Position numbers and translations under genes: made by a program. Shown here piece after piece: positions 23,877 to 41,574 of a stretch of 64,000 nucleotides of DNA. The stretch comes from Thermincola carboxydiphila (lineage in GTDB: Bacteria; Bacillota; Thermincolia; Thermincolales; UBA2595): NCBI GenBank assembly GCA_016841045.1, contig JAENZX010000004.1, forward strand, positions 124,001 through 188,000. The letters are read 5' to 3'. Each line of letters opens with the position of its first letter. Within the stretch, counting starts at the first letter, position 1. The notes beneath the pieces are model-generated. The model ran no database searches. It was given only the letters and a program-made list of their open reading frames with translations, and had not been told where the DNA came from.

Positions 23877-26591
23877 CTATTTACATAACCAAACTAGAAT
23901 AAGTGAATATAACTGTTCAATGTTAATGGGCTTACTAATGTAATCAGACGCTCCTGCGTCAATACACTTTTGCCTATCGCCTTTCATAGCCTTTGCTGTC
24001 ACAGCTATAATAGGAAGCTGCTTATACTCAGGCATCTGGCGAATACAACCGATAGTCTCGTAACCATCCATTTCAGGCATCATAATATCCATTAAAATCA
24101 AGTCAATATCGGGATTTTCTTCCAATATCTCAATTGACTCCCTGCCATTTTCAGCAAAGAGTACTATCATGTTGTGACGCTCCAAGACAGTGGTGAGGGC
24201 AAAAACGTTTCGCATATCATCATCTACAATGAGTATCTTTTTCCCGTCAAGGAGTTCCTTGTCACCGTCCTGCATTATTTCACCGTGCACTTCTTTTGCT
24301 TCAACCGGCTGAATCAATGACGGCATTTCATAAGAACCACATGCTGCCTCTTCCTCAGATGAAAAGTCCTGTTCTATCAGATCCCCAATAGGCAGGTATA
24401 ACGTAAACGTACTTCCCTCCCCCTCTGCTGTTTCAACCTCGATATGGCCGCCCAGCAGCTGAGCCAATTCTTTACTTATCGACAGCCCAAGACCGGTTCC
24501 ACCGTACTTTCTGCTAGTCGTGCCATCAGCCTGACTAAATGATTCAAAGATAAGGTGGACCTTGTCCCGGGATATACCAATACCCGTATCAATCACTGAC
24601 ATCGCCAAAGTCTGATCATCAACTGATTTTATATCAAGAATCACAGACCCGTATTCCGTGAACTTAATGGCATTAGACAGTAAATTGTTTAATATCTGTT
24701 TAAGTTTTTGTTCATCTGTATAAATGGCAGTTGGGATATTTTCATCTAGCCGGACATCCAGCTTTATTCCCTTCTGCTCTGCAACTGCCGAAAACTGGCT
24801 TCTGATAAACGTTTCCAGTTCATCCATAAACAACTCACCCATTTCGACATTCATCTTACCTGATTCGATTTTTGACAGGTCAAGGATAGTATTAATTAAT
24901 CCTAATAAATCATTACCTGAACTATACATTGCACCGGCATATTCGACCTGCTTATCATCTAAGTTCCCATCCGGATTTTCTTTAAGAAGCTGTGCCAAGA
25001 TAAGAAGACTGTTTAAGGGGGTTCTTAATTCGTGTGACATGTTGGCAAGAAACTCCGACTTATATTTTGAAGTGAGAGTTAACTGCCTGGTTTTTTCCTC
25101 AAGAGTTGTTTTAATCTTCTCTAACTCCTCAGCCCTCTCTTCGGAACAACGGTTTTGTTCCTGTAATTCCTCGTTCATACTGCGAAGCTCTTCCTGCTGA
25201 GACTGTAATTCTTCAGCCTGGGACTGAAGTTCTTCAGTCAATACTTTTGATTCCTCCAGCAACTGCTGAATAGTCAGGTGACTGTCAATGCTGTGTATGA
25301 CTATTCCTACATTCCCCAATACCTGCTGGAACAATGTCAAATGGAGTTCACTAAACCGGTCCAGGGTAGCAAGTTCTATTGCACCTACCACCTGACCCTC
25401 AAATTCAATAGGCAGTATTATAATCGAAGCCGGGGGAGTTTGTCCGAGACCTGACGAAATTTTTATGTAATTCTCGGGAACCTCTGGTAGAATGAGTATC
25501 TTACTCTCCAAAATACACTGTCCTGCCAGACCTTCCCCAGCTTTTATTCTTTCGACGCCAGGTTCACCTGCTGTATCGGCATACGCAGCGTATTTCTTAA
25601 AATATTGAGGCTCACCAAGAAAATCCTTTATGTAAAATGCCCCATAACTTGCCCCTGCCAAAGGAGTAAGCTTATTGATGAGCAGAGAAGACATTGTATC
25701 AAAATTCTGCACTCCCTGGCAGAGCATTGATATCTCCGCCATAGCTGAATTGAGCCAATTTTGTTCCTCCATAGTATGCAAAAACTGTTTTTCAGTACGA
25801 GTCTGTTCTTCAATAGCGGCGGCCATCTCATTAATTGCAACAGCTATCTGTTTAAACTCGTTATCACCTTTAACTTCAAGCCGGGGAAGATTATCCTTCT
25901 CTCCATATGCAATACCGTTAAGAGCCCCTATTAATTGCCTAAGACTTTTGTTAAAGCTTCCGACAAACCAATAAGTAAAAAAAAGCCCGATTATGAAACT
26001 GGCGATAATTGTCATATATGTCAGTTTACTTGAATTACTAACAGTCTCTTCAATGCGGCTGTAGGCCCTTTGCGTTCTTTTTTCATGAAGGTCTCTTAAC
26101 TCGGCCATTATCTTAAAAATTTGTAGTCGTAGATTTTTACCCTCACGAAAAAAAAGCTGAGCAGCCTCTTCATTGTTACCCCCGGCAACCTGTTTTAGGA
26201 TTTGGTCTTCAAGCCGTCCATAATTTTGATGGGCCAGGCTTAGTCTGCTTATAATAACTTCTACTTCAGAAGTTTTATTATTCTTTTGCCCAGATTCCAT
26301 CGCAAGGATAGTTTCCAAAGTAGTTTCCACTTCAAAACGGGATTTATCCAATTCATCTCGCATATTTTCATTATATTTCTCGTTAACAACGATTTGCATC
26401 AGTTTTGATTCAGATAAATTCAACCCATTCTCAAGCTTATTTACCATTCTAAGTTTCTGCAGTCTGTCAGTAACTATCTCCTTGGTATCTTTTTGGAGTT
26501 GGTCAAGGAAAAATACCTGAATAGACATAAATAAAGCCATTACAATCAAGACCGCGCCAAAACCTAGATATAACTTACTGCTTATTTTCAT
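23877..26591 (-). CDS. Membrane hybrid histidine kinase, copy 1
   Basis: The 904-residue protein has TM1 (LYLGFGAVLIVMALFMSIQ), an extracytoplasmic helical sensor of about 170 residues and TM2 (MTIIASFIIGLFFTYWFV). A HAMP segment, a GAF-like domain (NFDTMSSLLINKLTPLAG), a Gln/Glu-rich coiled coil and an HK core follow (NMSHELRTPLNSL, NLLSNAIKFTE, GTGLGLSISKEL). A C-terminal receiver ends it (ILIVDDDMRN, LILMDIMMPEMDG, ISKPIN). Start ATG 26591 follows AAGGAGATCGG. The upstream paralogue at 26803-29529 is identical from about the coiled coil to the receiver end. Confidence 0.93.
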   Translation of the reverse strand: MKISSKLYLGFGAVLIVMALFMSIQVFFLDQLQKDTKEIVTDRLQKLRMVNKLENGLNLSESKLMQIVVNEKYNENMRDELDKSRFEVETTLETILAMESGQKNNKTSEVEVIISRLSLAHQNYGRLEDQILKQVAGGNNEEAAQLFFREGKNLRLQIFKIMAELRDLHEKRTQRAYSRIEETVSNSSKLTYMTIIASFIIGLFFTYWFVGSFNKSLRQLIGALNGIAYGEKDNLPRLEVKGDNEFKQIAVAINEMAAAIEEQTRTEKQFLHTMEEQNWLNSAMAEISMLCQGVQNFDTMSSLLINKLTPLAGASYGAFYIKDFLGEPQYFKKYAAYADTAGEPGVERIKAGEGLAGQCILESKILILPEVPENYIKISSGLGQTPPASIIILPIEFEGQVVGAIELATLDRFSELHLTLFQQVLGNVGIVIHSIDSHLTIQQLLEESKVLTEELQSQAEELQSQQEELRSMNEELQEQNRCSEERAEELEKIKTTLEEKTRQLTLTSKYKSEFLANMSHELRTPLNSLLILAQLLKENPDGNLDDKQVEYAGAMYSSGNDLLGLINTILDLSKIESGKMNVEMGELFMDELETFIRSQFSAVAEQKGIKLDVRLDENIPTAIYTDEQKLKQILNNLLSNAIKFTEYGSVILDIKSVDDQTLAMSVIDTGIGISRDKVHLIFESFSQADGTTSRKYGGTGLGLSISKELAQLLGGHIEVETAEGEGSTFTLYLPIGDLIEQDFSSEEEAACGSYEMPSLIQPVEAKEVHGEIMQDGDKELLDGKKILIVDDDMRNVFALTTVLERHNMIVLFAENGRESIEILEENPDIDLILMDIMMPEMDGYETIGCIRQMPEYKQLPIIAVTAKAMKGDRQKCIDAGASDYISKPINIEQLYSLILVWLCK
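23945..25240. repeat. Long direct repeat, copy A (pairs with 26871-28166)
   Basis: About 1,296 bases here and at a constant offset of 2,926 bases look identical wherever I compared them. Synonymous and amino-acid differences appear outside both ends. The tract covers the coiled coil, kinase core and most of the receiver of the two hybrid kinases. Confidence 0.9.
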
Positions 26592-26750
26592 ATCCGATCT
26601 CCTTATAAGAATAAAAAAATATCTACCCCTTCGCATAAATTAGCTTAAATACACTATAAAACCCCATTATTTTTTAAAAACCAAACTTTATTATAATAAA
26701 TTATAAATACTAAGTCTTGAAAAATTTGTCGAAATAATATCCATATGTTG

Positions 26751-26802: not shown

Positions 26803-29529
26803 CTATTTACATAACCAAACTAATATAAGTGAGTATAACTGCTCAATGTTAATAGGTTTGCTGATATAATCAGACGCTCCTGCGTCAATACACTTTTGCC
26901 TATCGCCTTTCATAGCCTTTGCTGTCACAGCTATAATAGGAAGCTGCTTATACTCAGGCATCTGGCGAATACAACCGATAGTCTCGTAACCATCCATTTC
27001 AGGCATCATAATATCCATTAAAATCAAGTCAATATCGGGATTTTCTTCCAATATCTCAATTGACTCCCTGCCATTTTCAGCAAAGAGTACTATCATGTTG
27101 TGACGCTCCAAGACAGTGGTGAGGGCAAAAACGTTTCGCATATCATCATCTACAATGAGTATCTTTTTCCCGTCAAGGAGTTCCTTGTCACCGTCCTGCA
27201 TTATTTCACCGTGCACTTCTTTTGCTTCAACCGGCTGAATCAATGACGGCATTTCATAAGAACCACATGCTGCCTCTTCCTCAGATGAAAAGTCCTGTTC
27301 TATCAGATCCCCAATAGGCAGGTATAACGTAAACGTACTTCCCTCCCCCTCTGCTGTTTCAACCTCGATATGGCCGCCCAGCAGCTGAGCCAATTCTTTA
27401 CTTATCGACAGCCCAAGACCGGTTCCACCGTACTTTCTGCTAGTCGTGCCATCAGCCTGACTAAATGATTCAAAGATAAGGTGGACCTTGTCCCGGGATA
27501 TACCAATACCCGTATCAATCACTGACATCGCCAAAGTCTGATCATCAACTGATTTTATATCAAGAATCACAGACCCGTATTCCGTGAACTTAATGGCATT
27601 AGACAGTAAATTGTTTAATATCTGTTTAAGTTTTTGTTCATCTGTATAAATGGCAGTTGGGATATTTTCATCTAGCCGGACATCCAGCTTTATTCCCTTC
27701 TGCTCTGCAACTGCCGAAAACTGGCTTCTGATAAACGTTTCCAGTTCATCCATAAACAACTCACCCATTTCGACATTCATCTTACCTGATTCGATTTTTG
27801 ACAGGTCAAGGATAGTATTAATTAATCCTAATAAATCATTACCTGAACTATACATTGCACCGGCATATTCGACCTGCTTATCATCTAAGTTCCCATCCGG
27901 ATTTTCTTTAAGAAGCTGTGCCAAGATAAGAAGACTGTTTAAGGGGGTTCTTAATTCGTGTGACATGTTGGCAAGAAACTCCGACTTATATTTTGAAGTG
28001 AGAGTTAACTGCCTGGTTTTTTCCTCAAGAGTTGTTTTAATCTTCTCTAACTCCTCAGCCCTCTCTTCGGAACAACGGTTTTGTTCCTGTAATTCCTCGT
28101 TCATACTGCGAAGCTCTTCCTGCTGAGACTGTAATTCTTCAGCCTGGGACTGAAGTTCTTCAGTCAGCGCTTTTGATTCCTCCAGCAGTCCCTGAATAGT
28201 CAGGTGGCTCTTAATACCGTGTATAACAATACCAATATTCGCCAGCACTTGCTGCAGCAAAGTCATATGAAGTTCGGTAAACTGGTCCAGGGTAGCAAGT
28301 TCAATTGCACCCACAGCCTGGCCCTCGAATTCGATAGGCATGATTATAATCGACGCAGGGAGAGTATGTCCAAGACCTGACGAAATTTTTATGTAATTCT
28401 CAGGCACCTCAGGTAAAATGATTGTCTTATTCTCTGAAATACACTGTCCTATCAGGCCTTCACCGACCTTTATTCTTTCAACGCCAGGTTCACCTGCAGT
28501 ATCGGCATACGCAGCGTATTTCTTAAAACATTGAGGGTCGCCCAAAAAATCCCTTATGTAAAACGCTCCATAACTTGCCCCTGCCATTGGGGTAATCTTA
28601 TTAATGAGCAGAGAAGACATTGTATCAAAATTCTGCACACCCTGGGAAAGCACTGATATCTCCGCCACAGCTAAATTGAGCCAGTTTTGGTCCTCCATGG
28701 TCTGTAAAAACTGTTTCTCAGTTTTTGCCTGTTCTTCAATAGCGGCGGCCATCTCATTAACTGCATCAGCAATTTCTTTAAACTCGTTATTACCTTTAAC
28801 TTCAAGCCGGGGAAGGTTGTCCTTCTGTCCATATGCAATACCGTTAAGAGCCCCTATCAATTGCTTAAGACTCTTGTTAAAGTTCCCGACAAACCAATAA
28901 ACAAAGGCTAATCCTATTATAAAACTGGAAATGACCGTAACATATATCAATTGGTTCGACTTAAGAATAGTTTGTTCAAAGCTGCTGTAAACCGCATTCG
29001 TTCTTTTTTCATAAAGTTCTCTCGTCTCTGCCATTATCTGAATCATTTCCATCCGTAGATTCTTACCCTCATGAAAAAAGAGATAAGAAGCCTCCGCATT
29101 GTTACCAGCGGCAGATTGTTCTAAAATTTTTTCTTGAAGCTCTACGTATTTTTTATTCATCAGTCTTGATCTAGTAATAATATCATCAACTTCGGAAATA
29201 TTGCTTACGAGAGCCTCGACATCGGATGTGACAGCGAGTCGTTGAAGAGAATCAAAGGTTGTTGCTACTTCAAAACTTATTTTATCTAATTCGCTTCGCA
29301 CCCCTTCATTATATTTGCCTCCAACAACAAGTTCCGTTAGTATTGCTTCCGAAGAGTTCAGATCGTTTTGAATTTTGTTTAACAATCTCAGTATCCGCAC
29401 TCTATCATTGACTATTTTCTTGGTATCATCGTGAATTCGGTCAAGAAGAACTGCCTGAACAGCCATAAAAATAGTCATAACGATCAATAACGAGCCAAAA
29501 CCTAAATATAACTTTCTGCTTATTTTCAA
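26803..29529 (-). CDS. Membrane hybrid histidine kinase, copy 2
   Basis: The 908-residue paralogue of the downstream gene has the same order: TM1, extracytoplasmic helical sensor, TM2 (LIYVTVISSFIIGLAFVYWF), HAMP, GAF, coiled coil, HisKA, HATPase and receiver. The sensor has clearly diverged from copy 1, while residues from about LTEELQSQAEEL to the C-terminus are identical. The start is TTG 29529 with AAGGAG upstream, which aligns with the ATG of copy 1. The frame continues to 29616 but that extension has no counterpart in copy 1. The two kinases probably sense different ligands and signal through the same output. Confidence 0.92.
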   Translation of the reverse strand: MKISRKLYLGFGSLLIVMTIFMAVQAVLLDRIHDDTKKIVNDRVRILRLLNKIQNDLNSSEAILTELVVGGKYNEGVRSELDKISFEVATTFDSLQRLAVTSDVEALVSNISEVDDIITRSRLMNKKYVELQEKILEQSAAGNNAEASYLFFHEGKNLRMEMIQIMAETRELYEKRTNAVYSSFEQTILKSNQLIYVTVISSFIIGLAFVYWFVGNFNKSLKQLIGALNGIAYGQKDNLPRLEVKGNNEFKEIADAVNEMAAAIEEQAKTEKQFLQTMEDQNWLNLAVAEISVLSQGVQNFDTMSSLLINKITPMAGASYGAFYIRDFLGDPQCFKKYAAYADTAGEPGVERIKVGEGLIGQCISENKTIILPEVPENYIKISSGLGHTLPASIIIMPIEFEGQAVGAIELATLDQFTELHMTLLQQVLANIGIVIHGIKSHLTIQGLLEESKALTEELQSQAEELQSQQEELRSMNEELQEQNRCSEERAEELEKIKTTLEEKTRQLTLTSKYKSEFLANMSHELRTPLNSLLILAQLLKENPDGNLDDKQVEYAGAMYSSGNDLLGLINTILDLSKIESGKMNVEMGELFMDELETFIRSQFSAVAEQKGIKLDVRLDENIPTAIYTDEQKLKQILNNLLSNAIKFTEYGSVILDIKSVDDQTLAMSVIDTGIGISRDKVHLIFESFSQADGTTSRKYGGTGLGLSISKELAQLLGGHIEVETAEGEGSTFTLYLPIGDLIEQDFSSEEEAACGSYEMPSLIQPVEAKEVHGEIMQDGDKELLDGKKILIVDDDMRNVFALTTVLERHNMIVLFAENGRESIEILEENPDIDLILMDIMMPEMDGYETIGCIRQMPEYKQLPIIAVTAKAMKGDRQKCIDAGASDYISKPINIEQLYSLILVWLCK
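26871..28166. repeat. Long direct repeat, copy B (pairs with 23945-25240)
   Basis: Second copy of the identical kinase-receiver tract. Its sharp borders inside otherwise diverged paralogues point to gene conversion rather than a recent whole-gene duplication. Confidence 0.9.
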
Positions 29530-29715
29530 TACTCCCAACTCCTTATGAAGATAGGTCTCCTTATTAAAATAGGATATGCATCTACTCATTCGACATAACC
29601 AAGACAAAAACATCACAAAACCACATCATTTTCAAATGCCAGAATCTATTATAATAAATTATAAATACTAAGTCCTGAAAACTTTGTCGAATTAATAGCC
29701 ATATACTGCCAAATG

Positions 29716-29809: not shown

Positions 29810-32500
29810 TTAACTAATTTTTTCAACTTTGACCGCAGCCACTTTTAATTCAGGTATCTTGGCTATTGGGTCACGGGCAGTATTGGTAAGGAAGTTTACA
29901 GCCACTTCTGAGAAGTGGAAGGAAGTAAACACCATGCCCTGAGGAACCCTCTTGGTAACGTTGGCCTTTGCCATTATGCTGCCTCGCCGCGAGCTTACCT
30001 TTACAGTGTCACCATCACCGACCTCAAGACTGCAGGCATCTGCAGGATTGATTTCAATAGTTTCTTCACTGTAGATGGTGTTAAGTCCTTTGGCTCTTCT
30101 TGTCATAGTACCGGTATGGTAATGGTACAAACGGCGTCCGGTGTTTAATACAAAGGGGTATTCCTCATCAGGCAGCTCTGCCGGCGGCTCAAAGTCAACT
30201 GCAGTGAACTTGCCCAAACCTCTTGAGAATTTACCTTCATGCAGGTACTTGGTTCCTGGGTGGTCTGCTGTGGGACATGGCCACTGAAGACCTCCCTGAT
30301 CCAGACGGGCAAAACTCATGCCGGCATACTGGGGAGTAATAGAGACCATTTCGTTAAATACATCTGAAGCACTGCAGTATTCATGAGGATAGCCCATCAT
30401 TGTCAGCACTTCTGAAATAACTTCCCAGTCAGCCTTTCCAGCAACCGGTTCAACAGCCTTGCGCACTCTCTGGACACGACGCTCAGTATTACTGAAGGTA
30501 CCGTCCTTCTCGGCAAAACTGGCCCCTGGCAGGACAACATCTGCCAGCATGGCTGTTTCCGTCAGGAAAAGATCCTGAACCACAAGAAATTCGAGATTGT
30601 CAAGGGCTTTCTCTACATGGGAAATATCCGGGTCACTCAGCATTGGGTTCTCACCAAGGATATAAAGAGCCTTCAGATCCCCGTGATGAGCAGCATCCAT
30701 CATTTCACCAACAGTAAGACCAACCTTCTCGGACTGCTGAACACCCCATGCTCTGGTAAATTTCTCAATATTGGCAGGATCAGTCACAGCCTGATAACCG
30801 GGGAATACATTTGGCAGGCCACCCATATCGCAGGCACCCTGAACATTATTCTGTCCACGCAGTGGGTTAACCCCGCTGCTGGGCTTGCCTATCTGCCCTG
30901 TAAGCATTGACAGGTTAGCAATTGCCAGAACGTTTGTTGTGCCCGATGTATGCTGGGTAATACCCATAGTATAGAATATAGCAGCATTATTAGCTTTTGC
31001 GAAGCCACGAGCAATTTCCCTGATAGTATCAGCGGATACGCCAATTACACCGGCATATGCCTCAGGGGTAAAAGCGGCTGTTGCCTCCTTCAATTCATCG
31101 AACCCTTCAGTGCGGTTAGTTACAAATTCTTTGTCATAAAGCCCTTCTTCAATTATTACATTACACATTGTCATAACCAATGGAATGTTCGCACCAGGTT
31201 TCAGTGGAACGTGCACTTTGGCTAATTCTGCTATCTCAGTTTTACGTGGATCAGCTACTACAAGAGTTGCCCCATTCTTAAGAGCCTTTCTCATTTCTAT
31301 ACTGATGATGGGGTGAGTCTCTGTAGTGTTTGAACCAATTACAAGCATGTAATCACAATCTTTGATTTCACCAATAGAGTTAGTCATTGCTCCACTACCA
31401 AATGAAGTTGCCAGACCGGCAACAGTAGCGGAGTGTCAGAGACGGGCGCAGTGGTCTATGTTATTGGTTCCAAAAGCCACCCGCGCCATTTTGTTCATTA
31501 GATAGTTTTCTTCATTGGTACAGCGTGCGGAAGTTAAGACTCCCATCGCTTCACTGCCGTTCTTTTCTTTAATCTCCTTCATCCTGTAAGCGACATAACG
31601 GATTGCCTCATCCCAGGAAGCTTCCACAAATTCGCCGTCCTTTTTAATGAGAGGCCTGGTAAGACGGTCAGAACTGTGTATAAAATCATATCCAAAACGT
31701 CCTTTGACACAGAGATGGCGACCGTTAACCTCACTTGAGGGGTTAGAGGTTACCCCTACTACTTTTCCGTCTTTAACATTAAGGTCAAAATTACAGCCAC
31801 ATCCGCAGTAAGGACAGGTGGTTTTTACTTTCTTAACTTCCCATGGACGGGCCTTGCCCATCATGTTTTTCTCCACGATGGCGCCCACAGGGCAAACTGC
31901 CACACAACTACCGCAGCTTACACACTTGGATTCATCAATTTCACCTAAGCCCACATCAAGAGCCGGAGCAACTTTGGTGGTAAAACCACGGGAGGTAAAG
32001 TCATAAACACTGCGACCAACTATCTCGGCACAAACCCGGACGCACTTGCCGCAAAGAATACACTTGTTCATATCCCTGTAAAGAACTGCGCTTGATTCAT
32101 CAACAGGGAAATCGCTCTTATCACCAACAAAACTGGCTTTTCTGACCCCGTAACGATAAGCATATTCAGCCAGTTTACAGTCTCCGAACTTCTGGCAGGT
32201 CATGCAATCTTCAGGGTGATTAGCCAAAAGTAGATCAAGAATGGTACGTCTTGCTTCCACCACGTCTGCCGATTCTGTCTCTACTTCCATCCCTTCCACA
32301 ACTGTAGTTACACAGGACGGTGGAAGATTACGCATCCCTTTGATTTCGACCACACATATCCGGCAGGCACCCGGCTTGGACAGCTCGGGGTCATGGCAAA
32401 AAGTAGGGATATCAATTCCTGCCTGAGCTGCCGCTTCAAGTACAGTAGTCCCCGCCGGAACAGTAACTTTCTGGCCGTTAATTGTCAGGGTTATAGACAT
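29810..32500 (-). CDS. fdhA: Selenocysteine-containing NAD-linked formate dehydrogenase, catalytic subunit
   Basis: The 896-residue protein oxidises formate or reduces CO2 at a Mo/W-bis-pterin site. An in-frame TGA at 31438-31436 (codon 355) lies in HCARL-U-HSATVAG, the exact Sec site of formate dehydrogenases, and is followed by a canonical SECIS. From the N-terminus it has a [2Fe-2S] domain (CHDP, CRICVVEIKG), a NuoG-type cysteine cluster (CMTCQKFGDC) and two [4Fe-4S] motifs (CILCGKCVRVC, CVSCGSCVAVCP). The catalytic domain's own cluster (CPYCGCGC) and the molybdopterin oxidoreductase domain complete it. ATG 32500 follows AAGGAGGGAG. It is the last gene of the Hnd/Nuo-like operon. Confidence 0.97.
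31407..31438 (-). promoter_or_regulatory. bSECIS element of fdhA
   Basis: On the minus strand, 12 bases after the UGA, GTTGCC-GGTCT-GGCAAC forms a six-bp stem with the apical loop GGUCU. That is the same loop as in the E. coli fdhF SECIS bound by SelB. The element lies within the coding sequence. Confidence 0.92.
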
Positions 32501-32597: not shown

Positions 32598-33533
32598 TTA
32601 CTTCTTCTGCGCAGTTAGTTTTTCGATAATGGGAGCTATTCCGAGTGCTTCTTCCCATGAAGTTTCTACAAACTCGCCATCCTTGTTGATAAGAGGAAGT
32701 TCTGACTTATCCGGGTTGTAAATCAACTCAATGCCAAGACGGCCTTTAAGGCACAGGGGCCTTCCCTGATCCGGTGATTTGGCAGTAACACCCATGAATT
32801 TACCGTCTTTATAATTAACATCAAATTTGCACCCTGAATCACAGAATGTGCAGGTCACTTCTTTCTTCTCAAGCTCCCATCCGCGGCCCTTACCCATCAT
32901 GGTTTTATCCACAATGGCACCTACAGGACAGATTGCAACACAGCGGTTGCAGTATACACAAGTTGAATCCTTCAGGTCTGTATCCATAAATGTTGCGATC
33001 TTGGTATTAAAGCCCCTGTAAGCAAAATCCAGCACGTTCCTGTCTGAAACCGCTCTGCAGGTGGCCACACACTTGCCGCAAAGGATACACTTGTTTAAAT
33101 CTCTGTAAATATAGGGGTTACTGTCATCAATACCAAATTCGTGCTTTTCACCCTCAAAACGTGTTTGGCTTGCCACCCCGTATCGGTATGAGTAATCCTG
33201 AAGTTTGCAGTTACCGCTTTTTTCACAAGACAGGCAATCAAGCGGATGATTGGCAACAAGCAGCTCAAGAATTGTCTTCCTGGCTTCAACAACTGCGGGA
33301 GATTCGGTTTCAACTTCCATACCCTGTGCAACAGTAGTTATACAGGACGGAGGCAGGTTTCGCCAGCCCTTTATCTCAACAACACATATACGACACGCAC
33401 CGGGAGCTGTCAGGCCTTTTTCATAACAGAATGTTGGAATATCAATCCCAATCTGCTTAGCTGCCTCCAGCACTGTTATTCCCTCAGGTACTGTAACTTT
33501 TTGCCCGTTAATGGTTAAATTGATATCGGCCAT
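32598..33533 (-). CDS. NuoG-like iron-sulfur protein without catalytic domain
   Basis: The 311-residue protein parallels the N-terminal third of FdhA. It has a [2Fe-2S] domain (CYEK, CRICVVEIKG), a NuoG-type cluster (CLSCEKSGNC), two [4Fe-4S] motifs (CILCGKCVATC, CVYCNRCVAICP) and a fourth cluster motif CTFCDSGC. It then stops shortly after FVETSWEEALG, exactly where the catalytic domain of FdhA would begin. It therefore looks like an electron-wire subunit made by duplicating and truncating fdhA, not a pseudogene: the frame, RBS (AGGAGG) and cysteines are intact. It is co-transcribed between the NuoF-like gene and fdhA. Confidence 0.88.
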   Translation of the reverse strand: MADINLTINGQKVTVPEGITVLEAAKQIGIDIPTFCYEKGLTAPGACRICVVEIKGWRNLPPSCITTVAQGMEVETESPAVVEARKTILELLVANHPLDCLSCEKSGNCKLQDYSYRYGVASQTRFEGEKHEFGIDDSNPYIYRDLNKCILCGKCVATCRAVSDRNVLDFAYRGFNTKIATFMDTDLKDSTCVYCNRCVAICPVGAIVDKTMMGKGRGWELEKKEVTCTFCDSGCKFDVNYKDGKFMGVTAKSPDQGRPLCLKGRLGIELIYNPDKSELPLINKDGEFVETSWEEALGIAPIIEKLTAQKK

Positions 33534-33546
33534 ATTTTAGACCTCC

Positions 33547-35340
33547 TTAACCCTTAACGATGGCGTTGAATTTGCATTTTTCTATACAGCTTCCACACTT
33601 GATACACTTTGAGGTATCGAGAGTGTGAGCCTCTTTCTTCTCGCCGGTAATTGCGCCAACCGGGCAGACGCGGGCACATGCGCCGCAGCCTTTGCAATTC
33701 TCAGCGACAATTTTGTATTCAAGCATGGCGGTGCAAACACCTGCAGGGCATTTCTTTTGATAAATGTGAGCTTCAAATTCATCCCTGAAGTATCTAAGAG
33801 TTGAAAGAATCGGGTTTGGAGCACTTTGTCCCAGAGCACAGAGAGCAGTATTCTTAATAACTTTACCCAACTGTTCAAGGGTTGTGATATCCTCAGGAAC
33901 ACCATTACCGTCACAGATTTTCTCAAGGATCTCAAGCATCCTCTTGGTACCTTCACGACAAGGTATGCACTTACCACAGGACTCTTTCTGGGTGAAGTTA
34001 AGGAAGAACTTGGCAACATCCACCATACAGGATGTCTCGTCCATAACAACAAGACCACCAGAACCCATCATAGCGCCAAGAGCTGTCAGAGAGTCATAAT
34101 CAACCGGTGTATCAAGGTGCTGCTCAGGAATACATCCTCCTGAGGGACCGCCTATCTGAACAGCCTTGAATTTTTTATCATCCATGATACCGCCACCGAT
34201 GTCGAAGATAATTTCCCTAAGTGTGATGCCCATGGGAACTTCAGCAAGACCGGTATTCCTCAGCTTTCCGGTGAGGGCAAATACCTTGGTCCCTTTACTC
34301 TTCTCAGTTCCAACACTGGCATATTTATCTGCACCGTGGAGGTAAATTACCGGAACATTGGCAAAGGTCTCAACGTTGTTAATATTAGATGGTTTTTCCC
34401 ATAAACCCTTGACTGCCGGGAATGGCGGCCTTGGGTTGGGCATACCGCGGGAACCTTCAATTGAGGCCATGAGAGCGGTTTCTTCGCCACAGACGAAAGC
34501 TCCGGCACCCTCTTTAATATGAAGTCGGCAGCTAAAACCTGATCCCATAATATTTTCACCAAGCAGGCCCATTTCCTCAGCCTGGGCGATGGCAACTTTA
34601 AGGCGCTTGATAGCAAGGGGATACTCAGCCCGCACATAAAGGTAGCCTTCGTCAGCACCAATAGCGAATGCTGCGATCAGCATACCTTCAAGTACGCTGT
34701 GGGGGTCACCTTCGAGTACGCTTCGGTCCATAAATGCACCAGGATCTCCCTCGTCAGCATTACAAATAATATACTTCTTGGGACCAGGAGATTTGGATGC
34801 GAATTCCCACTTTAAACCGGTCGAGAAACCGCCGCCTCCACGTCCCCTTAAGCCTGCCTTTTTCATATCCTCAATGACCTCATTGGGGGTCATGCCGGTC
34901 AGCACCTTGGCCAGTGCTTCATATCCGTCGCGAGCGATATATTCCTTAATATCTTCGGGATCAATGTGACCGCAATTTCTGAGAGCTACCCTCTGCTGTT
35001 TCTTATAAAAAGCAATTTCCTTGTAAGAGGGAACCTGTTCTTCAGTGACCGGTGCCTTAAATAAAAGACGCTGAACAATCCGGCCCTTGACAAGGTGCTC
35101 TGACACAATTTCGGGTATGTCTTCAACAGCTACACGGCAGTAAAAGGTGCCTTCCGGATAAACGATTACAATTGGCCCCATTTCACAGAAACCGTGACAA
35201 CCTGTTTCTACAATCTTAACTTCTTTATCAATATTCTGCTTAGCCAGTTCGTCGGTAAGAGCCTGCTCAATCTTCTTTGATCCTGAAGAAACGCAACCCG
35301 TACCTCCGCAGACCAGCACGTGAGCACGATACAACTGCAT
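33547..35340 (-). CDS. NADH-binding flavoprotein subunit (NuoF/HndC/HydB type)
   Basis: The 597-residue protein has an N-terminal thioredoxin-like [2Fe-2S] domain (VCGGTGCVSSG, VETGCHGFCEMGP). The NuoF core follows: GLRGRGGGGFSTGLKWEF for FMN/NADH, CNADEGDPGAFMDR, and ESCGKCIPCREG for the [4Fe-4S] centre. A C-terminal ferredoxin domain has two [4Fe-4S] motifs (CKGCGACARVCP, CIKCGSCIEKC). This architecture is that of electron-bifurcating hydrogenases and formate dehydrogenases, where it moves electrons between NAD(P)H and ferredoxin. It is the third gene of the operon. Confidence 0.93.
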   Translation of the reverse strand: MQLYRAHVLVCGGTGCVSSGSKKIEQALTDELAKQNIDKEVKIVETGCHGFCEMGPIVIVYPEGTFYCRVAVEDIPEIVSEHLVKGRIVQRLLFKAPVTEEQVPSYKEIAFYKKQQRVALRNCGHIDPEDIKEYIARDGYEALAKVLTGMTPNEVIEDMKKAGLRGRGGGGFSTGLKWEFASKSPGPKKYIICNADEGDPGAFMDRSVLEGDPHSVLEGMLIAAFAIGADEGYLYVRAEYPLAIKRLKVAIAQAEEMGLLGENIMGSGFSCRLHIKEGAGAFVCGEETALMASIEGSRGMPNPRPPFPAVKGLWEKPSNINNVETFANVPVIYLHGADKYASVGTEKSKGTKVFALTGKLRNTGLAEVPMGITLREIIFDIGGGIMDDKKFKAVQIGGPSGGCIPEQHLDTPVDYDSLTALGAMMGSGGLVVMDETSCMVDVAKFFLNFTQKESCGKCIPCREGTKRMLEILEKICDGNGVPEDITTLEQLGKVIKNTALCALGQSAPNPILSTLRYFRDEFEAHIYQKKCPAGVCTAMLEYKIVAENCKGCGACARVCPVGAITGEKKEAHTLDTSKCIKCGSCIEKCKFNAIVKG

Positions 35341-35364: not shown

Positions 35365-35730
35365 CTAATCAAGTTTTGCAACGACCAGGTCTTCCACTAT
35401 CTGACCATTTATTACATGTGAGTTAATAATTCTGGATATATCCTGAGGTTTTACGCGTCCGTAAGTAATTCTTGTTTCTCCCGGACGTACAACATCAATC
35501 AGGACTTCCTTTTCACACATTCCAATACAACCGGTTTGAGTAACTCTGACGTCAGTCATATCCCTTTTTGCCAGTTCATCCAAAACGGCACTCATTACTT
35601 CTCTGGCTCCGGCTGCAATCCCGCAGGTACCCATCCCAACAATTATCTCAACACCCTGTCCAGCACGAATGTTGGTGAGTGCTTTTGCTTCTTCCCTAAG
35701 GCGTCTGAGGTCTTCAGCGCTTTTAATCAC
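35365..35730 (-). CDS. Thioredoxin-like [2Fe-2S] ferredoxin (HndB type)
   Basis: The 121-residue protein has the four-cysteine pattern of the thioredoxin-like ferredoxin fold (GMGTCGIAAGA, then TQTGCIGMCEKEV), as in HndB of the NADP-reducing hydrogenase. It should carry one [2Fe-2S] cluster and serve as an electron-transfer subunit. It lies between the NuoE-like and NuoF-like genes. Confidence 0.9.
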   Translation of the reverse strand: MIKSAEDLRRLREEAKALTNIRAGQGVEIIVGMGTCGIAAGAREVMSAVLDELAKRDMTDVRVTQTGCIGMCEKEVLIDVVRPGETRITYGRVKPQDISRIINSHVINGQIVEDLVVAKLD

Positions 35731-35875: not shown

Positions 35876-36364
35876 CTACTTGTACTGTTCCAAAAGGCCG
35901 GCTACCATATCAGGCGTGAGACGACCGTGAGTATCATCATTAACCATCATAACAGGAGCCAGACCGCAAGCCCCAAGGCAAGCCACCGACTCAAATGTGT
36001 ACCTCAGGTCTTCAGAAGTCTCGCCGTCCTTAATTCCGACTGCCTTTGTGACAGCCTCAGCAACTTTCGCCCCGCCACGCACATGGCACGCGGTACCGAG
36101 ACAAACCCTGATAATATTGCGGCCTCTCGGCTTCAAATGGAATTGGGCGTAAAAAGTAACGACTCCGTAAATCTTGCTGAGAGGAATCTGCAAATTAGCA
36201 GAAATCTCCTTCAACACTTCAGCGGGCAGGTAACCATAAATCTCCTGAGCCGCCTGAAGAACCGGGATCAATGCACCTTTTTTACCAGCAAATTTGTTGA
36301 ACACCTTTTCCAATTCCAGGGCTTCCTTTGTTTTTGTTTCGGCTGCATTACAACATTGACACAT
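35876..36364 (-). CDS. NuoE/HndA-type [2Fe-2S] subunit
   Basis: The 162-residue protein has the four ligands of the NuoE [2Fe-2S] cluster (VCLGTACHVRG and SVACLGACGLAPVM). It also has the usual N-terminal helical part (GALIPVLQAAQEIYGYLP and IYGVVTFYAQF). An extra Cys pair at the N-terminus (MCQCC) is unusual. It opens the operon NuoE-HndB-NuoF-NuoG-like-FdhA. Confidence 0.93.
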   Translation of the reverse strand: MCQCCNAAETKTKEALELEKVFNKFAGKKGALIPVLQAAQEIYGYLPAEVLKEISANLQIPLSKIYGVVTFYAQFHLKPRGRNIIRVCLGTACHVRGGAKVAEAVTKAVGIKDGETSEDLRYTFESVACLGACGLAPVMMVNDDTHGRLTPDMVAGLLEQYK

Positions 36365-36652
36365 GATACCTTTTCCCTCCTTCCTTAATAACTGTTGCTT
36401 AATTTATAGGTTTATCAGACAAATTTTGTATAAACTTTGAATCAAACCCTAAAACTGTACAATAGGTATCTATTAGACAAAATATCTCGTAATTCCTGCC
36501 CGAAAAAGTCTTAATTTTTTGAATTTAAGAGGCAATTTGAGGAAGGAATCATAATTTTCAAAGCGAAACTGTAAATGGGTGAAAAGTCTACCAGTTAAAT
36601 GTTTAAATAAACGTTAAAGAATTTGACAAATCTCTTAGAAATCCTTCCTGAT
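36365..36652. other. Divergent intergenic region, no gene seen
   Basis: This AT-rich stretch lies between the formate dehydrogenase operon and the sensory hydrogenase cluster. I see no ORF with a ribosome-binding site. It must carry the promoter of the minus-strand operon, for which I find only weak -10-like words (TATAAA, TATACA). It also holds the left arm of an inverted repeat GACAAATC (36625-36632) / GATTTGTC (36650-36657) next to the plus-strand promoter. Confidence 0.6.
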
Positions 36653-36681: not shown

Positions 36682-36772
36682 ACTAATACCCCAGAAAATT
36701 ATTTTATGGAATAAAAGAGCCACACAAGTTTCCTTTGATCCGACGTAACACTAATCATAAGGAGTGTGCTGT

Positions 36773-37123
36773 ATGAACCTGGCAAATCTTGCTAACATTC
36801 TGGAAGCTGAGCTTATATGCTGCGACTTTAATCTTGAAAAGGCTGTAACATATGTCAGTGCCGGTGATCTGATGAGTGATATTCTTACATCCACGCATCC
36901 CAATGCCCTCCTTGTCACTGGATTGGTCAATGTTCAGGTTGTCAGAACAGCCGAAATGCTGGACATCGCAGGTATAGTATTTATAAATGGAAAAAAACCT
37001 ACCAAGGAAATGATTGGACTAGCAATCAAAAAAGGCATCCCTCTTTTTGTTACGGCCAAGTCCCTTTATCTGAGCTGTGGACTCTTATACACAGCAGGTT
37101 TGAGAAATCCTTCCATTGCTTAA
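36773..37123 (+). CDS. DRTGG-domain protein 1
   Basis: The 116-residue protein is a stand-alone DRTGG domain, a small fold otherwise found in phosphotransacetylase and CBS proteins. Recognisable parts are the N-terminal LANILEAELIC, the AGDLMSDILT core and the LLVTGLVNVQVVRTAEML stretch. ATG 36773 follows AAGGAG. The domain is thought to bind ligands, but its role is not established. A second copy lies at 39004-39339. Such pairs recur beside HydS-like hydrogenase genes in Clostridia. Confidence 0.8.
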   Translation: MNLANLANILEAELICCDFNLEKAVTYVSAGDLMSDILTSTHPNALLVTGLVNVQVVRTAEMLDIAGIVFINGKKPTKEMIGLAIKKGIPLFVTAKSLYLSCGLLYTAGLRNPSIA

Positions 37124-37185
37124 GGGTACAAAAGTCTGTTATACTTCTTCCGAAATCCCGGCGAGAGTGAAAGGCGGTCAAACCT

Positions 37186-37644
37186 ATGGATAAAAAAGGA
37201 CCCAAAGAACAATTAACAACGTCAAAAGACATCAACCTTCAATACGCCATAAAAGGATTGGATCTTCTTGCCGCAGGAGAAGCTTCGAGTAATATAAAAC
37301 ATACACTGCAGCTGATAGGTTTCAGTCCCGCAATTATCCGCAAAGCGGCTATTGCTGCCTATGAAGCAGAAATGAATATTGTTATCCATGGCAGGCAGGG
37401 ATTTTTAAAAGCTGTTATAAATCCTAAAAGAATTGAATTAATTGCTGAAGATACCGGTCCGGGTATTCACGATATCGATCTGGCAATGACAGAAGGTTAC
37501 TCAACTGCTCCGGACTATATCCGGGAGATGGGTTTCGGGGCCGGAATGGGGCTGCCTAACATTAAAAATTGTGCCGATGAACTTACTATAGACTCTTCTG
37601 TAGGCAAAGGAACAATACTTCGGATAATCATTAATAACTACTAA
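37186..37644 (+). CDS. RsbW-like ATP-binding protein (anti-sigma kinase type)
   Basis: The 152-residue protein is a GHKL ATPase of the RsbW type. An N-box-like AAYEAEMNIVIHG, a G1 box EDTGPGIHDID and a G2 region FGAGMGLPNIKNCADE are present. No dimerisation His domain is present. RsbW-like proteins bind or phosphorylate STAS partners; none is seen here. Its place directly before the HydS-like gene suggests a role in signal output of that cluster. Confidence 0.85.
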   Translation: MDKKGPKEQLTTSKDINLQYAIKGLDLLAAGEASSNIKHTLQLIGFSPAIIRKAAIAAYEAEMNIVIHGRQGFLKAVINPKRIELIAEDTGPGIHDIDLAMTEGYSTAPDYIREMGFGAGMGLPNIKNCADELTIDSSVGKGTILRIIINNY

Positions 37645-37663
37645 ACGTTTGGAGTGACCACAC

Positions 37664-39007
37664 TTGAACAGGAATTACCTCTTTTCTAATACTGTAGATG
37701 CCCAAAAATGCAAAGGTTGTACCAACTGTGTCAAAAACTGCCCTACAGAAGCTATAAGAGTTAAAAAAGGCACTGCCACAACTATTGAAGAAAGATGCAT
37801 AAATTGCGGTAACTGTATCAGGACATGCCCGTATCATGCCAAGATCGCCATAACTGACCCTCTTGACCTGGAACGTCTCAGGGAATTTAAATATACAGTT
37901 GCTCTTTGTTCTTCAGTACTATATTCCCAATTCCACAGGTTAATACCGCCAGGTATAATTTTAAATGCTGTAAAATCCCTGGGGTTTGATGATGTATATC
38001 AGGAGGCCGTTGGTGCAGATGCGGTATCTGTAGCCACATGGGAGCTTCTTAATTCCAAAGAAAACAAAAAGCCCATTATCTCAACTTCATGCCCTGCAAT
38101 TATAAAACTAATTCAGGTGCGTTTTCCGACCCTTTTGGAAAACCTTTCACCCCTTCTTCCGCCAGTAGAAATCGCTGCAAAGCTCGTCAGGGAAAAAATC
38201 AGCAAAAAACAGAACCTTCCTCCAGACGAGATAGGAATATTCCTTATTACCCCATGCGTAGCCAAAGCCTCAGCCATCAAACATCCAGTGGGTATAACCA
38301 AATCTAATATCGACGGCGCAATCTCTGTAATCCGTCTCTATAACCAAATTCATAGTCTAGTCAGCACCACCCCTGACGATAAAAGTCTCGCATCCGCTTC
38401 CGGTCCCGCTGTTGGCTGGGTCAGGTCAGGCGGCGAAACAGCCGCTCTAAATCCTCCTAACTATGTTGTAGCCGACGGAATGAGCAATGTTTTGAAACTT
38501 CTTGAAGAAGCTGATATGAGACATTTTGACGATGTCGATTATATTGAGTGCCATTCATGTCATGGCGGCTGTCTTGGCGGCCCGCTTACGATAGAAAATT
38601 CTTTTGTGGCCAGGATTTTGAACAGGAAACTGGTGAGAACTTTACCGGCTGCAATTACAGAAAAAGAAAAGACTTTTTACAAAAAGCACTATTTAGAAGG
38701 TTATTTCTACTTCGACAAAGAAATTAAGGCTCATCCGATGATGCCTTTGGATCATGATATTGCCAAAGCCATTCAACTGGTTAGTAAGGTGGATGAAATA
38801 CTCAAAGACCTACCCGGTCTGGATTGTGCATCTTGCGGCTGTCCCAGCTGTAGGGCCCTGGCCGAAGATATTGCCAGGGGAAGCGCTGCATTGACTGATT
38901 GTATTTTCGTCCTGCTCCGCACAATCCGCGACTCTGCTCAGGAGACAATGAGCCTTATTCAAAAGGACCACAGAATTTCCAAAAATGGAAAGGAGCCTAA
39001 TAAATGA
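37664..39007 (+). CDS. Sensory-type [FeFe]-hydrogenase-like protein (HydS-like)
   Basis: The 447-residue protein has two N-terminal [4Fe-4S] motifs (CKGCTNCVKNCP, CINCGNCIRTCP) and a hydrogenase domain. All four H-cluster cysteines are present: Cys143 in STSCPA, Cys198 in TPCVAK, Cys299 and Cys303 in ECHSCHGGC. The proton-relay Cys of catalytic enzymes (TSCCP) is Ser142 and the L3 Met is His297, so fast turnover is unlikely. A C-terminal cysteine cluster (CASCGCPSCRAL) follows, as in the HydS group. It likely senses H2 or redox state. The start is TTG 37664 after GGAG. Confidence 0.87.
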   Translation: MNRNYLFSNTVDAQKCKGCTNCVKNCPTEAIRVKKGTATTIEERCINCGNCIRTCPYHAKIAITDPLDLERLREFKYTVALCSSVLYSQFHRLIPPGIILNAVKSLGFDDVYQEAVGADAVSVATWELLNSKENKKPIISTSCPAIIKLIQVRFPTLLENLSPLLPPVEIAAKLVREKISKKQNLPPDEIGIFLITPCVAKASAIKHPVGITKSNIDGAISVIRLYNQIHSLVSTTPDDKSLASASGPAVGWVRSGGETAALNPPNYVVADGMSNVLKLLEEADMRHFDDVDYIECHSCHGGCLGGPLTIENSFVARILNRKLVRTLPAAITEKEKTFYKKHYLEGYFYFDKEIKAHPMMPLDHDIAKAIQLVSKVDEILKDLPGLDCASCGCPSCRALAEDIARGSAALTDCIFVLLRTIRDSAQETMSLIQKDHRISKNGKEPNK

Positions 39008-39339
39008 AGCTGTCAGAAATCGTAACAGAACTTGGAGCCGAAGTGAAATGCTGCGCAGAATCCCTCCAGCGTGAGGTAAAGTGGTGCTACTGCTCCGATC
39101 TGCTCAGTGATGTGATGGCTAACGCAGAAAAAGACAGTATATGGATTACCCTCCAGACTCATCCAAATACCATTGCCGTGGCCTCTCTTATTAACCTGTC
39201 CGCTATTTTAATATCCAGGGGGGCTTCCCCGGATAACGAAACCGTTGAGAAAGCCATTCGTGAAAATATACCTGTGCTTACTACCAACCTTCCCACCTTT
39301 GAAGCAGCAGGAATCTTATATAAAATGCTGTCAAAGTAA
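39004..39339 (+). CDS. DRTGG-domain protein 2
   Basis: The 111-residue protein is a paralogue of the product of the gene at 36773, with the same SDLLSDVMA core and EAAGILYKML end. Its ATG overlaps the end of the HydS-like gene by four bases, so the two are translationally coupled. The function is not established; a small-molecule-sensing or protein-docking role within the sensory complex is possible. Confidence 0.8.
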   Translation: MKLSEIVTELGAEVKCCAESLQREVKWCYCSDLLSDVMANAEKDSIWITLQTHPNTIAVASLINLSAILISRGASPDNETVEKAIRENIPVLTTNLPTFEAAGILYKMLSK

Positions 39340-39353
39340 TGGGAGGTGGCGGG

Positions 39354-40649
39354 ATGAACCCGCTCAGGAATGAACCGTACCTAATCGACCTTCATATACA
39401 CACCGCCTTATCCCCCTGTGCCGAAGAAGAGATGACCCCTCCGAAAATCATTCATGCAGCCAGGGCAAAAGGCCTGAAAATGATTGCCGTTACAGATCAC
39501 AATACCGCAGAAAACGTTGCGGCAACCGTCAGAGCCTCTGTTGGAAGCGGCATTATTGTTATCCCCGGACTAGAGGTTCAAACCAGGGAAGAAGTTCACA
39601 TGGTATGTCTGTTTCCAAATATTGAATCATGTCTTAAGATGCAGAATCTTGTTTATGCAAGCCTGCCCGACCTTCGTAACCGAAAAGACATTTTCGGTTC
39701 CCAGATTATTATGGATAGTTCTGGTAATGCTGTAGCAGAACTAGACAGGATGCTTCTCATATCTGCCGAAATGACAGTAGAGTCCTTGGCAGATAAAACC
39801 GCCCAGTTAGGAGGGATTTGTTTCCCGGCTCATATCGACAGGCCATCCTTCAGCCTCCTGGCCACTCTGGGTTTCATTCCTCCGGAGCTAAACATTCAAA
39901 CAGTTGAATTATCAAAGCATATAACATCCGACGAAGCCGGTTACCGCTTCCCTTTTCTAAAAAACTATACATTATTAAGTTCCTCAGATGCCCATTGTCT
40001 TAAGGATATTGGTTCCAATCCAACGACATTTTTTTCCGTTTCAAACCCTGATTTTAGCCAATTAAAGCTGGCTTTGGGCAGTAACTTAGGTCGAAAGGTG
40101 CTGGCAAAAATGAAGGACCTCTCAATGCATATAATAGACATAGTTCAGAATTCAATAGAAGCAGGAGCTTCCGAAATCAGGCTGACTATTAATGAAGAGA
40201 CTGAGTCTGATTGCTTTTCTCTTGAAATTGCCGATGACGGCCGCGGTATGAGTGAATCCGAACTGAAACAGGCTGCCGATCCTTTTTTTACAACCCGTAC
40301 AACAAGAAAGATAGGTCTTGGAATCCCTCTTCTAAAGGCAGCCGCAGAACGGTGCAACGGGAAACTGCAGCTTTCTTCCACTGTGGGAAAAGGAACAACG
40401 GTAAGGGCTACTTTCAGTCACAGTCACATCGACCGGGCTCCTCTCGGTAATATTATTAATACAGTCGTCAATTTGGTTGCGGGCACTCCTGACTTAAACC
40501 TATATTTTTTACACATAATAGACAACCATGAAGTCAGATTCGATGCCAAGGAACTCAGAAACCAGTTGGAAGATATACCATTAAACAATCCTGCTGTGCT
40601 TAGCTGGATTAAGAAATACCTTAATGAAAGTTATAGTGCAATAAAGTGA
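39354..40649 (+). CDS. PHP phosphoesterase domain fused to a GHKL ATPase domain
   Basis: The 431-residue fusion begins with a PHP domain (about residues 8-245: DLHIHTALSPCAEEE, VTDHNTAENV, PGLEVQT, SSDAHCL), which normally binds two or three metals and cuts phosphoesters. A histidine-kinase-like ATPase domain follows from about residue 253 (KDLSMHIIDIVQNSIEAG, ADDGRGMSESEL, FFTTRTTRKIGLGIPLL). The ATPase part begins with a Met and looks like a once-separate protein. There is no phosphoacceptor His domain. ATG 39354 has GGAGG correctly placed. It is the last gene of the sensory cluster. Confidence 0.87.
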   Translation: MNPLRNEPYLIDLHIHTALSPCAEEEMTPPKIIHAARAKGLKMIAVTDHNTAENVAATVRASVGSGIIVIPGLEVQTREEVHMVCLFPNIESCLKMQNLVYASLPDLRNRKDIFGSQIIMDSSGNAVAELDRMLLISAEMTVESLADKTAQLGGICFPAHIDRPSFSLLATLGFIPPELNIQTVELSKHITSDEAGYRFPFLKNYTLLSSSDAHCLKDIGSNPTTFFSVSNPDFSQLKLALGSNLGRKVLAKMKDLSMHIIDIVQNSIEAGASEIRLTINEETESDCFSLEIADDGRGMSESELKQAADPFFTTRTTRKIGLGIPLLKAAAERCNGKLQLSSTVGKGTTVRATFSHSHIDRAPLGNIINTVVNLVAGTPDLNLYFLHIIDNHEVRFDAKELRNQLEDIPLNNPAVLSWIKKYLNESYSAIK

Positions 40650-40788: not shown

Positions 40789-41574
40789 ATGAGATATCAT
40801 CATAAAACAAAAGAAGAACTGATTAAAGAACTCTCAGAGCTTCGTAAAACGGAAAGTGATATTGCCCGGTTGGATAGACTAAATCTTATCGGGCAAATGG
40901 CTGCCGGCATCGGGCATGAAATAAGAAATCCCATGACAACAGTCAGGGGATTTCTGCAAATGCTTGTTAATAAAGAAGACGATTTAGAAAAAAAAGAGTA
41001 TTATAATATAATGATTGACGAACTTGACAGGGCCAATTCGATTATAACAGAGTTTCTTTCTCTGGCTAAAGACAGGCTGGTAAAGCTAAAGCCAGTATGT
41101 ATAAACGTGATGTTAAATAGCTTGTACCCAATGCTTTCAGTTGAAGCCCTAAAGCAGGATAAGCGCATAATTCTTAAAAAAGGCGACGTCCCTAAATTGA
41201 TGGCCAGTGAAAAAGAAATTGGCCAGCTTATACTTAACTTAGTCAGAAATGGCCTTGAAGCAATGGAGCCAAAGGGAACCCTTAGAATAGGCACGTTTTA
41301 TAAAAATAATGAAGTAGTTCTCACTGTTGAAGATGAAGGGACAGGTATTCAGGCTGAGATTCTTGATAAGCTGGGAACCCCTTTTGTTACTACAAAAGAC
41401 ACTGGAACAGGGTTAGGACTTGCTGTTTGCTATAGTATAGCCAATCGCCATAATGCCAAGATAGATGTAAAAACAAGCTCCGAGGGCACAACCTTTATAA
41501 TCCGTTTCGCACTTCCTTCAGCCAAGTTTGCTTCAGTAGAAGATTTGGTGGCATGTGGTTCAATTGACAATTGA
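40789..41574 (+). CDS. Soluble histidine kinase without sensor domain (sporulation-kinase-like)
   Basis: The 261-residue protein has only about 30 residues before the kinase core, including KTKEELIKELSELRK. The H-box IGQMAAGIGHEIRNPMTT, N-box LILNLVRNGLEAM and G2 box DTGTGLGLAV are nearly identical to those of the kinase at 21081. There is no membrane segment or PAS domain, so the signal must come from a partner, perhaps the sensory cluster upstream. The last residues (GSIDN) are encoded by the left arm of an inverted-repeat element, so the C-terminus may have been altered by its insertion. Confidence 0.9.
   Translation: MRYHHKTKEELIKELSELRKTESDIARLDRLNLIGQMAAGIGHEIRNPMTTVRGFLQMLVNKEDDLEKKEYYNIMIDELDRANSIITEFLSLAKDRLVKLKPVCINVMLNSLYPMLSVEALKQDKRIILKKGDVPKLMASEKEIGQLILNLVRNGLEAMEPKGTLRIGTFYKNNEVVLTVEDEGTGIQAEILDKLGTPFVTTKDTGTGLGLAVCYSIANRHNAKIDVKTSSEGTTFIIRFALPSAKFASVEDLVACGSIDN

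Follow-up and report, generated by a model that had tools for sequence, protein, structure and literature searches.

A group D HydS gene set beside a probable seleno-formate dehydrogenase operon in Thermincola carboxydiphila and its relatives

In Thermincola carboxydiphila, a conserved set of five genes centred on HydS, a putatively sensory [FeFe]-hydrogenase-like protein of group D, lies divergent from a formate dehydrogenase (fdh) operon. We analysed this arrangement in a 64,000-nucleotide stretch (contig JAENZX010000004.1, positions 124,001 to 188,000; hereafter the window). The same divergence is kept in eight of the nine genomes of the window's family (f1). On balance, we favour the view that the group D HydS forms a sensory module controlling an adjacent NAD/ferredoxin enzyme, here the product of the fdh operon.

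Results

A conserved five-gene set around HydS

Positions 36773-40649 of the window hold five closely packed open reading frames (ORFs) on the plus strand, all at the coordinates of the initial annotation and all with Pfam scores above the curated cut-offs:

36773..37123, plus: DRTGG-domain protein 1, 116 aa (ORF; Pfam DRTGG 27.3 bits)
37186..37644, plus: RsbW/SpoIIAB-like GHKL ATPase, 152 aa (Pfam HATPase_c 31.2 bits)
37664..39007, plus: HydS, group D (M2e-type), 447 aa (Fe_hyd_lg_C 103.4, C-terminal FeS 43.9 bits)
39004..39339, plus: DRTGG-domain protein 2, 111 aa (ORF; Pfam DRTGG 34.8 bits)
39339..40649, plus: PHP phosphoesterase-HATPase fusion, 436 aa (PHP 39.1, HATPase_c 61.0 bits)

These genes had been proposed to make a coherent signalling set; that they belong together is borne out by their conservation as a set of five in relatives. 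In most of these, the set opens with an orthologue of DRTGG protein 1, whose gene here starts with ATG at 36773 behind the ribosome-binding site aggag, an alternative GTG at 36764 being possible. HydS starts with TTG, its stop overlaps the gene of DRTGG protein 2 by four bases, and a whole-genome search finds the HydS/DRTGG pair only once. DRTGG domains are thought to bind nucleotides, and both DRTGG proteins of the set are probable nucleotide binders. The PHP domain of the fusion protein keeps all of its HxH, TDHN, PAH and SDAH motifs; in other families, PHP and HATPase are two separate genes, often with nuoE in between. A soluble histidine kinase at 40789-41574, considered as a sixth member, was rejected, as it is absent beside the set in family relatives.

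With its intact N-box (EAEMN), G1 (DTGPGI) and G2 (GFGAGMGL), the ATPase shares the GHKL domain of the RsbW/SpoIIAB anti-sigma kinases. It differs from these in scoring far under the curated cut-off of the anti-sigma F model TIGR01925 (49.1 against 135 bits) and in the lack of a STAS or sigma gene in its set. Neither a STAS antagonist nor a sigma factor gene occurs among the five genes or the scanned flanking genes, in agreement with the earlier statement that no output partner is adjacent, and no DNA-binding protein is encoded in the set.

HydS has the sequence features of group D

HydS consists of two N-terminal [4Fe-4S] motifs and the H-domain, followed by a C-terminal Cx2Cx4Cx16C motif at C388-C413 with conserved D387, E401, D402 and D412; Pfam detects no PAS domain. 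The H-cluster ligand cysteines are present (C143, C198, C299 and C303; L1, L2, L3), Ser142 occupies the position of the proton-relay cysteine (C299 in CpI) and His297 that of the L3 methionine, all as initially reported. The two substitutions had also been taken as marks of a sensor, but they are not diagnostic: family relatives carry Ala or Thr at the first position and mostly Leu at the second, where His is mostly private to the window's genome. For the same reason, an L3 His as the mark of fdh-linked HydS is rejected, and the Met position is known to be poorly conserved (Land et al. 2020, PMC8163306).

We took the criteria for group D from PMC8163306, PMC10407848 and PMC13104023. The M353 position is Thr196, a hydroxyl residue that fits the group D definer (PMC8163306), and the residues of the proposed group D proton path in Thermoanaerobacter mathranii (Tam) HydS, E252, E289, D265 and S249, correspond to E258, E295, D271 and S255, as mapped by motif alignment with a constant offset of +6. 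By every published sequence definer that could be checked, HydS is a group D protein, which supports its assignment to the putatively sensory kind. The typical group D trait of a link to a group A bifurcating hydrogenase is absent here, the partner being FdhA. A structure of HydS alone, predicted with AlphaFold, is too poor for pocket geometry (pLDDT 35).

The closest described counterpart is the HydS operon of T. mathranii (Land et al. 2020, PMC8163306; Carere et al. 2012, PMC3561251), with which the window shares the domain order of HydS, the lost relay cysteine, Ser/Thr at the M353 position, the proposed Glu/Asp proton path, the C-terminal Cx2Cx4Cx16C motif and an adjoining ATPase gene. In the window, however, the partner is a formate dehydrogenase instead of a bifurcating hydrogenase, the set is divergent and not upstream in a shared operon, PHP and HATPase are fused, and the position of Tam L291 is His. 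TmHydS of Thermotoga maritima, a putative sensor of group C (M2f), likewise combines a C-terminal [4Fe-4S] motif with loss of the relay cysteine (PMC10055695), but unlike the HydS of the window it has a PAS domain.

Three HydS genes of relatives contain internal stop codons (L073 in G098, L072 in G010, L056 in G070), due to decay or sequencing error; that of G098 adjoins fdhA.

The divergent operon is probably of the bifurcating formate dehydrogenase type

Between 36364 and 29810, the minus strand encodes, in order:

35876..36364, minus: NuoE/HydC-like thioredoxin-fold [2Fe-2S] subunit (Pfam)
35365..35730, minus: small ferredoxin-like (2Fe-2S-type) subunit, no Pfam match; its gene adjoins NuoF in most relatives
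33547..35340, minus: NuoF/HydB-like NAD(P)/FMN diaphorase subunit
32598..33533, minus: NuoG/FdhA-N-terminus-like iron-sulphur subunit, a truncated relative of the FdhA N-terminus
29810..32500, minus: FdhA, catalytic subunit of formate dehydrogenase, with TIGR01591 matches on both halves

A TGA at 31436-31438 interrupts the reading frame of FdhA, and 3' of it lies a hairpin (-23.1 kcal/mol, z -4.1) whose loop reads GGUCU. As such an arrangement is expected for selenocysteine insertion, FdhA is probably a selenoprotein, with the TGA encoding selenocysteine. FdhA, NuoE/NuoF-type subunits and NuoG-like N-terminal clusters are together the features by which NAD-coupled electron-bifurcating formate dehydrogenases are recognized, and from this gene content we infer that the neighbour of the set is a putative enzyme of the bifurcating type. 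It resembles the Clostridium acidurici-type Fdh of the BfuABC family (PMC9304861) in its FdhA, its NuoE/NuoF-like diaphorase and its NuoG-like N-terminus, and differs from it in the extra truncated FdhA-N-like subunit and the adjacent HydS set. The separate truncated subunit goes with the f1 fdh operon; it was not seen in the fdh operons of families f29, f53 and f7.

Catalytic hydrogenases and maturases in the genome

The claim that the window is free of catalytic hydrogenases withstood a whole-genome search. A single one is encoded elsewhere, a HydA of NCBIfam group A6 on contig C36, with no HydS/DRTGG set within 10 kb. The maturase HydG scores above its curated cut-off, and genes of the HydE and HydF types lie beside it on contig C45, which also encodes a third hydrogenase-like protein, one that is joined to a CheA-like kinase.

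HydS sets accompany hydrogenase, formate dehydrogenase or Rnf genes

One-query searches for HydS covered 100 relatives and then 399 genomes of the phylum. Each locus was taken with flanks of about 10 kb, and its ORFs were compared with the proteins of the window, yielding a survey of 93 relatives' loci plus the window's own. A HydA partner, together with NuoE and NuoF, is present in 57 loci of 32 families (56 of the 93 in 31 families before extension of the flank, which revealed L182 as an additional HydA-linked locus), confirming the expectation that such sets stand beside catalytic hydrogenases elsewhere. The usual order, all one way, is DRTGG, RsbW-like ATPase, HydS, DRTGG, PHP, NuoE, HATPase, small 2Fe-2S protein, NuoF and HydA. 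This link of group D HydS to bifurcating hydrogenases is already known (PMC3561251, PMC8163306).

FdhA is the partner in 15 loci, including the window, from five families: f1, f29, f53, f7 and f67. In f53, f7 and f67, the otherwise usual operon has fdhA in the position of hydA. The set and the fdh operon diverge in f1, and they do so in f29 too (G036, G178, G226, G295), where about 7 kb separate them. The initial annotation had named the absence of co-occurrence with fdhA in relatives as a refutation; we find this co-occurrence in eight of the nine family genomes and in four further families. The open-access papers searched name only hydrogenases as partners of group D HydS, and we found none that places HydS beside a formate dehydrogenase, a weak absence given this scope.

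In three loci of two further families (L059 in G047, L145 in G382, L139 in G182), the set has Rnf neighbours: rnfC and rnfD follow directly, and nuoF and hydA are missing. RnfC and RnfD are profile-confirmed in G047 and G182 and deduced from the similar layout in G382. About 18 surveyed loci have no partner in view, partly through contig ends. L174 (G102) combines the set with NuoE and NuoF but lacks both HydA and FdhA; a Rex repressor gene comes next, and rnfC lies further along.

These neighbourhoods also bear on the idea that HydS is itself a working hydrogenase subunit, forming with FdhA a complex like the hydrogen-dependent CO2 reductase. The position of the HydS gene beside fdhA and the three accessory [4Fe-4S] motifs in HydS would fit such a role. 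Its pocket residues, however, are those of group D and not group A, activity is very low in the one group D enzyme characterised so far (PMC10407848), HydS of this type also adjoins complete HydABC and precedes Rnf, HydS is transcribed apart from fdh, and a HycB-type linker was not recognised. We therefore consider a CO2 reductase-like complex highly improbable.

Within family f1, the set follows the diaphorase

The full divergent arrangement is seen in six f1 genomes, the window's included. In two others it is split over contig ends, with RsbW, DRTGG protein 1, NuoE and more on contig C54 in G003, and with the set on C50 and NuoE, Trx and NuoF on C177 in G006. The ninth genome, G002, keeps an FdhA of 83% identity and has no HydS anywhere. 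Its NuoF is only 66% identical to that of the window, compared to 86-90% in the other f1 genomes, and in the NuoF tree it falls outside the set-linked sequences, a placement that carries a long-branch caveat. The gene for 5-formyl-THF cyclo-ligase, which in the window lies beyond the set, directly adjoins the fdh operon of G002. Together with linkage that is independent of whether HydA or FdhA is present, G002 indicates that the set tracks the NAD/ferredoxin diaphorase rather than the catalytic subunit.

In an alternative reading, the ATPases, DRTGG proteins and PHP protein would act on the NuoE/NuoF diaphorase complex itself, through its modification, gating or assembly, with HydS as redox input and no role in transcription. 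Most hydrogenase-linked loci interleave PHP, NuoE, HATPase, small 2Fe-2S protein, NuoF and HydA in one direction, G002, with its different type of diaphorase, lacks the set, and the set includes no DNA-binding protein, all of which speak for this possibility; in f1 and f29, however, the set has moved to a divergent transcript of its own. Overall, we regard action purely at the protein level as rather unlikely.

Phylogeny of HydS and its partners

HydS sequences of f1 and f29 group together (SH-aLRT 90-94). Free trees imply two to three partner changes for the fdh-linked HydS, although the AU test does not reject their placement in a single clade (p 0.61). There may thus have been one swap between hydA and fdhA or several independent ones. 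The proposal that HydS evolves faster in fdh-linked loci was rejected: the ratio of HydS to NuoF distances is 1.55 there, against 1.48, with overlapping ranges, so that no excess divergence is apparent beside fdh.

This ratio is relevant to the possibility that the set is a bystander, regulating another target (HydA elsewhere, or the redox state globally) and lying beside fdh because fdhA took over from hydA in an ancestral operon. Hydrogenase-linked sets are by far the most frequent, and a HydA is encoded on contig C36. That HydA has no HydS set nearby, though, the linkage to fdh persists in eight of nine f1 genomes and in f29 despite rearrangement, and HydS in fdh-linked loci is not unduly diverged relative to NuoF. 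We consider a mere bystander improbable, and the set-fdh association first proposed from the window stands as a linkage that is not due to chance.

Paired SigH-like sites in the intergenic region

The region between the set and the fdh operon contains two SigH-like sites:

36472..36497, minus: nuoE-proximal SigH-like site, AGGAATT-N11-TGTCTAAT, pointing into the fdh operon
36621..36645, minus: second SigH-like site, AGGATTT-N10-TGTCAAAT, pointing into the fdh operon as well

Alignment of six f1 loci shows a unit of about 52 nt in two copies of the same orientation, each of which reads AGGA[A/T]TT-N10/11-TGTCNAAT on the minus strand, i.e. AGGA-N17/18-NAAT. The SigH promoter measured in Sporomusa sphaeroides, where SigH sites precede fdh genes too, consists of AGGA and GAAT with a spacer of 17-18 nt (PMC12456013); compared to this consensus, both copies in the window have A or T in place of the initial G of GAAT. 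Exactly two sites are found in each of the eight f1 genomes that have the locus, all directed towards nuoE-fdh, in three genomes with one mismatch in one site; G002 has no such sites. Two sites arose in none of 16,000 mononucleotide shuffles of the regions, and the window, with its two matches, had none in its dinucleotide shuffles. Genome-wide, the pattern matches 3-9 times per genome, compared to 0-1 times for a reversed control, suggesting that it represents a general promoter type, and a SigH gene above its cut-off is present in the genome. We read the two sites as putative tandem SigH-type promoters of the fdh operon. The conserved AT-rich block directly upstream of each -35 could be a candidate activator site. 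Rex and FNR boxes were rejected as control sites between the operons, since the best matches, with 4 and 2-3 mismatches, are unconvincing.

Discussion

In the mechanism that we propose, HydS would carry an H-cluster, and its conformation would shift with H2 or with reduction of its FeS chain by the ferredoxin/NADH pool. The change would be passed to the RsbW-like ATPase, the two DRTGG proteins and the PHP-HATPase protein, which would adjust the neighbouring NAD/ferredoxin-coupled diaphorase enzyme, either in its expression or directly in its activity. In most Firmicutes families this enzyme is the bifurcating hydrogenase HydABC; in the lineage of the window, with a probable seleno-formate dehydrogenase as catalytic subunit, the controlled step would be the interconversion of CO2 and formate. 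The H-cluster occupancy, the ligand, the order of the relay and the fdh operon as its output are all inferred from sequence and gene context. As CODH/ACS beta is encoded in the genome, a CO2-reducing role of this formate dehydrogenase is plausible.

Several points weigh against control of fdh by the HydS module: linkage kept in evolution does not prove regulation, the set comes without a DNA-binding output or STAS partner, and the interleaving with enzyme subunits in other families agrees as well with action on the proteins, in control or assembly, as with a transcriptional output. Within the proposed mechanism, the set may also act directly on the enzyme complex, given that set genes are interleaved in hydrogenase operons. 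A further point against the module comes from TamHydS: with an affinity constant close to 0.1 mM, it binds H2 weakly for a sensor, and H2 does not reduce its C-terminal cluster (PMC8163306, PMC13104023). With the set linked to fdh and rnf, a ferredoxin/NADH redox signal appears equally plausible; the variable common to hydrogenase, formate dehydrogenase and, at three loci, Rnf would be the ferredoxin/NADH couple and not H2. It is conceivable, albeit tentative, that group D HydS modules are general regulators of NADH/ferredoxin-coupled enzymes (HydABC, Fdh-ABC, Rnf), reading the state of ferredoxin/NADH or of H2 through an H-cluster, and that the module of this lineage is a dedicated CO2-to-formate switch.

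The putative sensory role of group D HydS rests on its gene neighbours, and the constant neighbour is a diaphorase, with hydrogenase, formate dehydrogenase or Rnf attached. This link sharpens the question of whether HydS responds to H2 or to the redox state of ferredoxin and NADH; the set may watch the electron supply of the cell, rather than serve hydrogenases alone. If HydS does control the formate dehydrogenase of CO2-fixing bacteria, it would put the entrance of the Wood-Ljungdahl pathway under the control of a sensor.

Other signalling loci in the genome

The maturase contig C45 (G000) carries a second, different hydrogenase-based signalling operon (L172:11106-19447, minus strand), in which the HydG, HydE and HydF genes are followed by a fusion protein of 1126 aa, composed of an [FeFe]-hydrogenase domain, a CheA-like kinase and CheX, next to a response regulator with GGDEF. 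On contig C14 (G000), a Rex-like repressor gene (L170:9896-10525) precedes a separate nuoE-nuoF operon with no gene for a catalytic subunit beside it. Within the window, two hybrid histidine kinases are encoded side by side at 23877-26636 and 26803-29616; their C-terminal halves look identical in protein sequence, pointing to recent duplication or gene conversion.
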